DNA from: Aminobacter niigataensis
GTDB lineage: Bacteria > Pseudomonadota > Alphaproteobacteria > Rhizobiales > Rhizobiaceae
Assembly: GCF_014200015.1 (NCBI RefSeq)
Contig: NZ_JACHOT010000001.1
Location: 558,001 to 622,000, forward strand
DNA: 64,000 nt
Direction: 5' to 3'
Part shown: positions 5,310-8,939 of the stretch, piece after piece
How the letters are laid out: every line of letters begins with the position of its first letter
Position numbering within the stretch: position 1 is the stretch's first letter
The notes under the pieces: model-generated
Database searches by the model: none
What the model was told of the DNA's origin: nothing
Seen by the model: only the letters and a program-made list of their open reading frames with translations
Program-made: the position numbers and the translations under genes

Positions 5310-6592
5310 ACCAAGTGGCGGCGGCGAAGCCGGCCGGGGCCGGGCCGTTCTCGGTGTTCGAGCGCATGGTGGCCTGGCGCTACCTTCGTTCGAAGCGCAA
5401 GGAGACGGTGATCTCGGTCATCGCCTCGATCTCGTTCCTCGGCATCATGCTGGGCGTTGCCACGTTGATCGTGGTGATGGCGGTGATGAACGGGTTTCGC
5501 GCCGAACTCCTGACCCGCATCCTCGGCGTCAACGGCCATCTGGTCGTCACCGCAGTGGACACCCCGCTTGAGGACTATTCGGCAGTCGCCGACCGCATCA
5601 ACGGTGTTTCAGGCGTCAAATATGCCATTCCGCTGGTCGAGGGCCAGGTGCTGGCGCAGGGCAATGTCGGCGCTGGCGCCGGCGCTCTGGTGCGCGGCAT
5701 CAGAGGCAGCGACCTCGGCAAGGTGACGCTGGTCGCCAACAACATCAAGCAAGGCTCGATCGTCGGCTTCGACGAAGGCGAGGGCGTGGTCATCGGCAAG
5801 CGCATGGCCGAGAACATGGGCCTGGTGCTGGGCGATTCCATCCGGCTGATTTCGCCCGACGGAGACGTCACGCCGATGGGCACGACGCCGCGGGCGAAAG
5901 CATATCCGATCTCCGGCATCTTCGAAGTCGGCATGTCGGAATATGACAGTTCGATCGTCTTCATGCCGCTCAACGAGGCGCAGCTCTACTTCAATTCCGA
6001 AGGCAAGGTCGGCTCGATCGAGATCTATGTCGACAATCCCGATGACGTCGATGCGCTGAAGACCAAGGTCGAGGAAGCGGCGCAGCGGCCGATCTTCCTG
6101 ACCGACTGGCGCCAGCGCAACCAGACCTTCTTCTCGGCACTGCAGGTCGAGCGCAACGTCATGTTCATGATCCTGACGCTGATCGTGCTTGTGGCAGCAT
6201 TGAACATTATCTCCGGCCTGATCATGCTGGTGAAGGACAAGGGCCACGACATCGCCATCCTGCGCACGATGGGTGCGACGCGTGGCGCCGTCATGCGCAT
6301 CTTCCTGATGACGGGCGCCGCCATCGGTATGACCGGCACCATTGCCGGCGTGCTGCTCGGCGTCGTCATCTGCCTCAATGTCGAGCGCATCAGGCAGTTC
6401 TTCTCGTGGCTTTCCGGCACGGTGCTGTTCAATCCCGAGCTCTATTTCCTCAGCCAGCTGCCGGCCAAGATGGACGTCGGCGAGACTGTCTCGGTGGTGC
6501 TGATGGCCCTGGTGCTGTCGTTCCTGGCGACACTGTTTCCGGCATGGCGGGCGGCAACGCTCGATCCGGTCGAAGCGCTGAGGTACGAGTGA
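5306..6592 (+). CDS. lolC: Lipoprotein-releasing ABC transporter permease (LolC/LolE family)
   Basis: 428 aa inner-membrane permease with an FtsX fold. One N-terminal helix is at residues 40-65, a large periplasmic domain follows to about 280, then three C-terminal helices, ending in the family-typical DPVEALRYE. With LolD it extracts outer-membrane lipoproteins and hands them to LolA. It overlaps both proS (4 nt) and lolD (1 nt). A single permease gene, instead of separate lolC and lolE, implies a homodimeric (LolF-type) transporter. Confidence 0.93.
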
Positions 6593-7278
6593 TGGCCATC
6601 GAAGCCGTTATCGAACTCAAGAGCGTCGAACGCCATTATGAGCAGGGCTCGCGCAAGCTGACGATCCTGAACGATGCCAATTTCTCGCTCAAGCCGGGCG
6701 AGATGGTGGCTCTGGTGGCGCCGTCAGGCGCCGGCAAGTCGACGCTGCTGCATACCGCAGGCCTGCTCGAACGCCCCGACGCCGGCGACGTCTTCCTGAA
6801 CGGGCGCGCCTGCGGGCGGCTTTCGGACGACGAGCGTACCGCGATCCGCCGCAACGACGTTGGTTTTGTCTATCAGTTCCATCACCTGCTGCCCGAATTC
6901 TCGGCGCTGGAGAATGTGATGATGCCGCAGTTGGTGAAGGGTCTCAGCCCGGCCAAGGCGAGCGAGCGTGCCGAGCAACTGCTCGACTACATGAAGATCG
7001 GCAAGCGCGCCGAACACAGGCCGTCAGAGCTTTCCGGCGGCGAGCAGCAGCGTGTGGCGATCGCACGCGCGGTTGCCAATGCGCCGCTGGTGCTTCTGGC
7101 CGACGAGCCGACCGGCAATCTCGATCCGGTGACGGCAGGCTATGTCTTCGACGCGCTTTCGGCGCTCGTCAGGCAGTCTGGCCTGGCGGCGCTGATTGCC
7201 ACACACAACCACGAGCTTGCCGCGCGCATGGACCGCCGCGTGACGCTCGCCGAGGGCAAGATCGTTCCGCTGCGCTAG
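6592..7278 (+). CDS. lolD: Lipoprotein-releasing ABC transporter ATP-binding protein
   Basis: 228 aa. The start ATG 6592 overlaps the lolC stop (TGATG); the longer frame from 6406 lies inside lolC. Walker [12 protein letters not shown] is at about residues 43-53, followed by a Q-loop, the signature [14 protein letters not shown], Walker [12 protein letters not shown] and the switch histidine in ATHNHELA. It powers lipoprotein release together with the preceding permease. In many Rhizobiales dnaE follows; here an SOS-type region and lipB follow instead. Confidence 0.95.
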
Positions 7279-7342: not shown

Positions 7343-7357
7343 GTTCGATGCCGGTTC
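7343..7357 (+). promoter_or_regulatory. LexA (SOS) box GTTC-N7-GTTC
   Basis: A perfect match to the alphaproteobacterial LexA consensus GTTC-N7-GTTC, immediately downstream of a TTGACT -35-like hexamer at 7333-7338. It is in the gap after lolD, about 170 nt upstream of a mini-ORF that has further boxes. Confidence 0.55.
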
Positions 7358-7468
7358 GGCTGACGCGCGATTGTTAACGCGCGGCGGTGACCGGTCGCGC
7401 GCATAAACCCTTCATTTACTGTCGAATCGCTTGCAACGAGCGCCTGCGCCCGAAAGCAATGGTGTGCG

Positions 7469-7503
7469 TTGACATTTGAACAAAAATAGAACAAATTGAG
7501 AAC
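7469..7503 (+). promoter_or_regulatory. Promoter with triple LexA half-sites (GAAC-N7-GAAC-N7-GAAC)
   Basis: GAAC occurs at 7478, 7489 and 7500, each 11 nt apart. The first pair, GAACAAAAATAGAACAA, matches the extended Rhizobiales SOS box GAAC-AAAA-NN-AGAACAA base for base. A TTGACA -35 hexamer (7469-7474) abuts the first half-site, so LexA binding would block this promoter. A ribosome site (AGGAGC) and ATG 7526 follow. Confidence 0.75.
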
Positions 7504-7525
7504 ATATTAAAAACAGGAGCAACAG

Positions 7526-7612
7526 ATGACCGAGCTGCTACAGGATGTCCTTTCGATGGTCTGCATGAGCACCTTCCTCGTCACCATGGCGATGTGGATC
7601 GGCGCACTGTGA
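7526..7612 (+). CDS. SOS-regulated 28-aa membrane mini-protein (SidA-like candidate)
   Basis: 28 aa with an AGGAG ribosome site 6 nt before the ATG. The sequence begins MTELLQDVLSMVCMS and continues as one hydrophobic helix ending WIGAL. Three spaced LexA half-sites overlap the promoter. In Caulobacter the 29-aa inner-membrane protein SidA is made under SOS control and blocks division at FtsW/FtsN. Size, single helix and regulation match that logic. No sequence homology is claimed, and the function here is inferred. Confidence 0.65.
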   Translation: MTELLQDVLSMVCMSTFLVTMAMWIGAL

Positions 7613-7771
7613 TTGAATGCCGGTTCGGCCTCTTCTCGATGGGGTTCTGGACCGATGAAGGCTGCGGCACCGGGACAGATCCCGATGCCTGAATGACGCG
7701 GGAATTGCGGCGCCGACGTCAAAGGGACCCGCCACGTTCGGGGCTGCAAACAGGCAGACCAGCGAAAGTTC

Positions 7772-8512
7772 CTAGGCGGTTTTTCGTACGGTCTCGGAGA
7801 CTGTGCTAGCTGGCCCGAATATCGCTTCGAAAGCGGCCTTGAGCGCAACGTCGAGGTCGTTCATCGTCACCGGCAGGCCAAGGTCGACAAGGCTGGTGAC
7901 GCCATGGTCGGTGACGCCGCAAGGCACGATGCCCGAGAAATGGCCGAGCTCAGGTTCGACATTGATGGCGATGCCGTGGAAACTCACCCAACGACGCAGG
8001 CGTATGCCGATGGCGGCAATCTTGTCTTCCGCCGGTGAACCGTCCGGCAGGGCCGGGCGGTCGGGTCTGACCACCCAGACGCCCACCCTGTCCTCGCGGC
8101 GTTCGCCCTTCACGTTGAAGGCGGCGAGCGCCGATATGATCCAGGCCTCGAGTGATGCCACGAAGGCACGCACGTCTTCGCGCCGACGCTTGAGGTCGAG
8201 CATGACGTAGGCCACGCGCTGGCCGGGGCCATGATAGGTGTATTCGCCGCCGCGGCCGGTCTTGAAGACGGGGAAACGGTCGGGCTCGACCAGGTCCTGC
8301 TCCTGGGCGCTGGTGCCTGCGGTGTAGATTGGCGGGTGCTCGACCAGCCAGACCATCTCGCCGGCGCTACCCTGGCGAATCGCGTCGGCGCGCTCTTCCA
8401 TGAAGGCGAGTGCCTGATCGTAAGGGGTGAGGCCGGATTCGATTCGCCATTCGACCGGGGCTGAGCCCGGAAGGGCGAGAAACGACGTGGCGATCAGGCT
8501 GCGTTCGGTCAT
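7772..8512 (-). CDS. lipB: Lipoyl(octanoyl) transferase
   Basis: 246 aa from ATG 8512; the reading frame continues upstream to 8809, but that part overlaps the tRNA gene and is not coding. It transfers octanoate from acyl carrier protein to lipoyl domains of dehydrogenase complexes. The family motifs [11 protein letters not shown], the catalytic lysine in KIAAIGIRL and the cysteine in [13 protein letters not shown] are intact. It is transcribed convergently to the mini-gene on the left. Confidence 0.95.
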
Positions 8513-8720
8513 TTGGACGGTCCGTTCTTCGGCCTGATATGGCCGCTGGCGGCCAAAACGTCCAGTCCCCGCGCCTTGAAAGCCGGCTATTGTCGAAAGT
8601 GATGGCGGCTTCCCCTGGGGCAAGCAAGAATGATCGACGAATATCGCACAGGGCGCTTGTTTCCCCGGAAACGATTTGCTACATGCCGCGAGCCGGTTCG
8701 GACCGGCCCTTCGTGACAGT

Positions 8721-8805
8721 GCGGTCGTGGCGGAATTGGTAGACGCGCAGCGTTGAGGTCGCTGTGGGGCAACCCGTGGAAGTTCGAGTCTTCTCGACCG
8801 CACCA
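8721..8805 (+). tRNA. tRNA-Leu (anticodon GAG)
   Basis: 85 nt including encoded CCA (8803-8805). The acceptor stem GCGGTCG pairs with CGACCGC. The anticodon stem CAGCG/CGCTG holds the loop TTGAGGT, giving anticodon GAG. A long type-II variable arm and a TTCGAGTC T-loop are present. It reads CUC/CUU leucine codons. Confidence 0.97.
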
Positions 8806-8939
8806 TCACTTTTCAGGTGAGTACCAAATCATCTGAGCAAGCCGTTCCATCTGGGATGAAACAGCTTGAGCCTTTCCGGGGTTAACCGGTGTCTTTCAAG
8901 AATTACAGAGAGTTGCGCAGTCTTGCTGCCGTTGATCAC

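Follow-up and report, generated by a model that had tools for sequence, protein, structure and literature searches.

A 28-codon gene behind putative LexA boxes is conserved across Rhizobiaceae and may encode a SidA-like membrane micropeptide

SOS-induced single-pass inhibitors aimed at the division protein FtsW are described as recurring in bacteria (PMC4211646, PMC13396833). In Caulobacter crescentus, SidA is reported as a 29-amino-acid inner-membrane SOS product acting on FtsW, FtsI and FtsN (PMC4211646), and loss of sidA is reported to relieve the filamentation of a lexA mutant (PMC12700426). YneA of Bacillus is described as binding FtsW through its helix, and low-confidence models by the same authors suggest the same binding for SidA, SosA and ChiZ; by itself, though, the helix of YneA localizes to the septum without blocking division (PMC13396833). 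For the family studied here, work on Brucella supports an SOS response, and that study's text does not mention SidA (PMC6813329).

We analyzed a 64,000-nucleotide stretch of the Aminobacter niigataensis genome (hereafter "the window"), in which a first-pass annotation had singled out positions 7469–7612 as an SOS-controlled micropeptide gene, probably a SidA-type cell-division checkpoint. We compared 117 loci, reduced to 99 unique loci (window included) by merging duplicates and dropping one locus with an uncertain start (L037). The features are as follows.

7469–7474, + strand: TTGACA, a −35-like element, read from the sequence; TTGAC at −75 to −40 in 96/99 unique loci.
7478–7503, + strand: two overlapping putative LexA boxes, GAAC-N7-GAAC-N7-GAAC; triple motif in 73/99 and at least one box in 98/99 unique loci.
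7515–7519, + strand: Shine–Dalgarno sequence AGGAG, 6 nt before the ATG; consensus AACaGGAG in 67 loci with the box start at −48.
7526–7612, + strand: 28-codon ORF encoding a hydrophobic micropeptide with one probable membrane helix; pN/pS 0.20 in frame, hydropathy marginal.
6592–7278, + strand: lolD (ABC transporter ATPase, PF00005), upstream neighbor and context marker outside the unit.
7772–8809, − strand: lipB (PF21948), convergent downstream neighbor and context marker; the extent is that of the listed ORF.

All the elements of the original observation (TTGACA, three GAAC half-sites, AGGAG and the 28-codon ORF) were found again. The half-sites, said to recur at 11-nt intervals, read directly at 7478, 7489 and 7500, and the good ribosome site that had been claimed is the AGGAG listed above. 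The ORF starts with an ATG at 7526, 22 nt past the last half-site, ends with TGA at 7610–7612, and encodes 28 amino acids, MTELLQDVLSMVCMSTFLVTMAMWIGAL. The proposed TTGACA promoter held in part: TTGAC is conserved, but a consensus promoter scanner detected no sigma-70 promoter over the gene and no good −10 element after TTGACA. At the micropeptide locus, we found neither an intrinsic terminator nor an Rfam match, and its 3′ side folded no better than shuffled sequences. A direct repeat on either side of the ORF (ATGCCGGTTCGGC, at 7348–7360 and 7617–7629; counted as GCCGGTTCGGC) was considered and rejected as part of the conserved unit, since both copies occur in this locus while its core was found once in only one of nine other congeneric loci.

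The micropeptide ORF is a real protein-coding gene. All 99 unique loci have an ATG start and a stop at codon 29, and pN/pS across these loci is 0.20 in frame, compared to 1.2 and 5.9 for the two out-of-frame readings, with heterozygosity of 0.16, 0.03, and 0.37 at codon positions 1, 2, and 3. Conservation also follows the ORF boundaries: in eight of nine congeners, the ORF is 85–95% identical to the window DNA, compared to 27–40% for the next 60 nt (ungapped), while in the ninth the 60-nt flank 3′ of the ORF is 92% identical to the window. An RNA gene was rejected as a reading of the locus on the absence of an Rfam match and the conservation of the frame. The window micropeptide matched no NCBIfam or Pfam model at E-values up to 10, nor did four relatives match NCBIfam at E-values up to 1.

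We next considered the boxes, which are the reverse complement of the LexA motif GTTC-N7-GTTC described in Caulobacter (PMC12700426). Counts of the motif were modest: 4 GAAC-N7-GAAC pairs in the window against 1.89 expected, 152 genome-wide against 122 for a reversed control, and a single triple motif in both the genome and its control. Because the motif alone is not significant, the LexA claim rests on place and conservation. At least one exact box occurs within 75 nt upstream of the ORF in the 98 box-bearing loci, compared to a background of 13 among 18,356 75-nt windows (0.07%), and a box lies within 300 nt upstream of lexA in 26 of 28 lexA loci, that of the window's own genome among them. 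An AT-rich form of the box was found at 16 places in this genome (the two of the micropeptide gene included) against 5 for the control, and precedes ssb, DNA polymerase IV and yifB/comM (above curated NCBIfam cut-offs), parE (first 400 amino acids only) and an ImuA-like gene (both below), and a second Y-family polymerase identified by Pfam. Box orientation is opposite to the gene for polymerase IV and yifB, and further AT-rich boxes precede genes for which no link to SOS was found. Overall, LexA control of the micropeptide gene appears very likely from these sequence patterns, and established alphaproteobacterial LexA biology would imply induction by DNA damage. Among the matches listed in a search of the open-licence literature, no paper describes the gene as SOS-controlled.

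Additional boxes were seen elsewhere. The Rhizobium-type loci L136, L139, and L141 (528–610 nt behind lolD) have a second GAAC-N7-GAAC box 176–214 nt before the main one, perhaps controlling a further small gene or one on the opposite strand. Separately, a box GAACGAAATAGGAAC occurs with similar flanking DNA at three places, G000:C1:1264372, C1:1545859, and C2:348025 (L164, L166, and L167), and is adjoined in L166 and L167 by related small ORFs on the opposite strand.

The gene was then traced across taxa. Within the genus, all 10 genomes searched (its own included) encode the micropeptide, the nine others being 86–93% identical over 28 residues. With the window micropeptide alone as query, 77 of 199 family genomes matched, while a profile that includes divergent forms picked behind lolD (A2) matched 336/394 family genomes and 96/109 genera. 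In the order, A2 weakly matched 25 genomes outside the family (249 searched); for 21 weak loci outside the family, an exact box was found within 90 nt in 15 and lolD upstream in 13, i.e., at least one of these features in 18 and neither in 3; box and lolD had played no part in the search. A narrower profile matched 14/397 genomes across the order, 11 of them in the family. At the class level, A2 matched the query genome alone in a sample of 289 genomes, and the narrower profile, run on 385 genomes, added a single match beyond the order, marginal and partial. On these family, order, and class searches, the micropeptide has the distribution expected of a trait inherited within the order. The first-pass annotation had proposed to look for conservation in other Rhizobiales, and these profile searches bear it out: the ORF is matched in most family genomes and, less strongly, beyond the family, and 98 of the 99 unique loci keep a box.

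Together with the genus search, the less biased sample is a set of 28 family genomes that had been negative with the window peptide or the narrower profile and were re-examined behind lolD (one of them, G029, was negative with the window peptide and weak with the narrower profile). Eleven strong and three weak forms were found within 1.5 kb of lolD, ten more genomes were matched by A2 (four with listed positions 1.6–2.9 kb behind lolD), and four had none; no exact box lies within 70 nt of one weak form (L156). E-values for these genomes are partly circular, since box-plus-ORF units picked by eye behind lolD became profile seeds. No micropeptide was detected in the one genome of this set without lexA (G015), nor in two whose lexA lacks a box (G014 and G099), while 24 of the other 25 carry the micropeptide if the three weak forms, missed by A2, are counted; no micropeptide was detected in the exception, G027, whose lexA does have a box. 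This co-occurrence of lexA box and micropeptide (Fisher p 0.0012 over the 28 genomes, not corrected for phylogeny) is supportive only, because related small genomes are not independent. Five genomes (G017, G025, G085, G127, and G196) have two micropeptide matches each, the second of which are possibly duplicates.

A mobile origin was considered and set aside. The Mesorhizobium-type micropeptide matched nothing in the plasmid or phage collections, and the only plasmid-collection match of the Rhizobium type was a 4.6-Mb Shinella sequence classed as a plasmid, in which lolD and dnaE1 lie beside the micropeptide gene (by eye) and for which hardly any genes are annotated.

The hydropathy profile of the window micropeptide favors a single helix spanning residues 8 to 26. 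Here the earlier description of a 28-codon ORF with one hydrophobic helix was right as to the coding ORF and a single hydrophobic segment, but the helix itself is marginal: the best 19-residue Kyte–Doolittle mean is 1.85, for a usual cut-off of 1.6, and the flat Hessa sum is +0.39. For seven relatives scored, the Kyte–Doolittle mean exceeds 2.0 in five and the Hessa sum is negative in six, while one (L221) scores poorly (1.58 and +3.92). None of the 184 short ATG ORFs of the window reached a mean of 2.0, a control that is uninformative because the micropeptide itself also falls below this value. The peptide is slightly acidic (net charge −2). D7 and F17 are invariant across 28 rows, comprising 17 of the 19 rows of alignment A2 (two near-duplicates dropped) and 11 of 21 order-level loci; L216, L220, L222, L223, L224, L225, L231, L232, L233, L234, and the weak L152, L154, and L156 were left out, and relatives longer than the window peptide were trimmed to 28 columns. 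Because the rows were chosen, this invariance is partly a product of selection. Positions 6, 10, 14, 17, 21, and 24 form the best-conserved face of the helix (permutation p 0.06, suggestive only), and the invariant D7 lies beside this face, not on it. Judged from the alignment, the conservation pattern fits a helix docking on a partner better than a pore.

The gene, its reading frame, its boxes, their conservation and its genomic context are established computationally; membrane insertion, target, and division arrest we infer by analogy. Specifically, LexA on the two overlapping boxes over the promoter would keep the gene off until RecA filaments prompt LexA self-cleavage and the promoter opens. 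A 28-residue peptide with one inner-membrane helix would then be made, and this helix would dock against one of the membrane proteins in the late septal complex (FtsW, FtsI, or FtsN) and delay cytokinesis, as SidA does in Caulobacter. We lean, by a narrow balance of probability, towards such a free-standing SOS gene whose peptide causes a SidA-like septation block. Purifying selection, the boxes, those at SOS genes, presence across the family, the boxes and lolD at the weak loci outside it, the co-occurrence with a boxed lexA, the recurrence of SOS-induced FtsW inhibitors in bacteria, and the invariance of D7 and F17 in the 28 chosen rows speak for this role, while the marginal helix, the poor score of L221, the p of 0.06 for periodicity, the position of D7 off the conserved face, the existence of short SOS-induced membrane peptides of other function (TisB, DinQ), and the exception of G027 speak against it. 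A bare helix need not be enough to block division either, since that of YneA reaches the septum without a block, although SidA is active with its 29 amino acids. The initial interpretation is to this extent partly supported, i.e., in its boxes, coding ORF, hydrophobic segment, and presence in the family and, more weakly, the order.

A broader reading, to which we give about an even chance, is that LexA-controlled single-helix micropeptides, inherited vertically across the order and usually near lolD, would constitute the missing SOS division checkpoint of the polar-growing Rhizobiales, either independent of SidA or diverged from it beyond recognition. Such a family is easy to overlook because it falls below the usual annotation size.

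The main alternatives concern what the peptide acts on, and part of the evidence comes from the gene neighborhood. In Mesorhizobium and Aminobacter, the usual order is proS-lolE-lolD-peptide, followed by convergent lipB. Neighbors were scored for 80 named loci, the best 80 of the 103 found with a peptide pattern, which favors conserved residues: 69 have a same-strand lolD upstream, and 76 have a convergent lipB on the downstream side, at varying distances. Binding to larger membrane proteins is common among small ones, and the micropeptide could be a LexA-controlled regulator of another inner-membrane protein (a protease adaptor, a transporter, or an envelope-stress modulator); the frequent linkage to lolD would then leave room for a connection with lipoprotein export. 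We regard this as unlikely. Against a lolD-linked regulator, a same-strand lolD is lacking upstream in 11 of these best 80 loci (one by inversion, the micropeptide gene of L051 being opposite in orientation to lolD, and several because the locus is short), and in Rhizobium-type genomes it can lie 1.6–2.9 kb behind lolD; a plain Lol subunit, for its part, would not be expected to have its own SOS-type promoter.

Also unlikely, in our judgment, is a membrane-active peptide that, once damage has occurred, would reduce the membrane potential and either slow growth or favor persistence, with no divisome target. TisB of Escherichia coli, a short LexA-controlled membrane peptide that is paired with an antisense RNA and is not known as a division inhibitor, is one model for this. 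DinQ, also of Escherichia coli, is another: a short, toxic, SOS-regulated single transmembrane peptide under LexA control, described with antisense RNAs (PMC3567139) and likewise not a division inhibitor. The micropeptide resembles both in its size, SOS-type boxes, and hydrophobicity. There is, however, no sign of a long leader, the ATG being so close to the last half-site, nor of an antisense RNA at the locus, either by Rfam or as a promoter-like site on either strand (a weak test, as the scanner misses the gene's own promoter too). The net charge of −2 also counts against this kind of peptide, and the fact that D7 and F17 never vary among the chosen rows suggests a specific partner.

The micropeptide ORF could also be a leader controlling the gene behind it, as a Sinorhizobium meliloti Ribo-seq study suggests generally for 5′-UTR sORFs such as that of dnaE1, where sORF25 was located (PMC10117765). 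The same study describes SEP6, a translated protein of <30 amino acids for which a helix is predicted; it was recovered mostly from the membrane-and-ribosome pellet and is conserved within Hyphomicrobiales; judged by their descriptions only, sORF25 or SEP6 may be the micropeptide orthologue, and neither "SOS" nor "LexA" occurs in the main text (PMC10117765). The first-pass annotation had placed the gene in a lolD-dnaE region, which is right for the Rhizobium-type and Shinella branch and wrong for the window, where the observed order is lolD-lipB: dnaE1 follows the micropeptide in the Rhizobium-type loci L212 (profile), L130, L131, L133, and L143 (by eye), and visual inspection of Shinella sp. 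PSBB067 gave proS-lolE-lolD-peptide-dnaE1. In L212 and Shinella L235, the dnaE1 open frame starts ~190 nt from the micropeptide ATG, and some of the dnaE1 expression in this branch may come from SOS read-through because the boxed micropeptide sits shortly upstream. A leader function is nonetheless very improbable, as ORF and boxes are kept where the next gene is convergent lipB (76 of the best 80 loci) and the conservation is at the amino-acid level; in this genome, where the next gene found is convergent lipB, a leader-peptide role is disfavored. Finally, the possibility that the ORF arose by chance, or that the locus yields a non-coding SOS transcript whose frame is conserved fortuitously, can practically be dismissed: short ORFs are common by chance and the box pair shows no significant enrichment in the window, but the in-frame pN/pS is far below that of the shifted frames, ATG and stop are fixed in 99 loci, no RNA family matched, and the 3′ fold is no better than shuffles.

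If the SidA-like reading is correct, the micropeptide would be a new conserved gene, without a Pfam or NCBIfam model, in the core SOS response of this family and, probably, of its order, which include nitrogen-fixing symbionts. It would answer how Rhizobiales couple DNA damage to division, and would offer, at 28 residues, a minimal system in which to ask how a membrane helix on its own can stop the divisome. Profile A2 enables others to find the gene.

Compared to known systems, the micropeptide is most like SidA in its alphaproteobacterial host, its very short length (28 compared to 29 amino acids), its predicted single helix, and its LexA-type motif, whereas a division block has been demonstrated for SidA and the role here is proposed by analogy. 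As for homology, class-wide profile searches reached beyond the order with a single match, marginal and partial, for the narrower profile and with none for A2. YneA (Bacillus), SosA (Staphylococcus), and ChiZ (Mycobacterium) are likewise described as damage-induced small membrane inhibitors of late division, but YneA and ChiZ carry a LysM domain, which YneA needs for its block (PMC13396833), while the micropeptide described here is essentially the helix alone.
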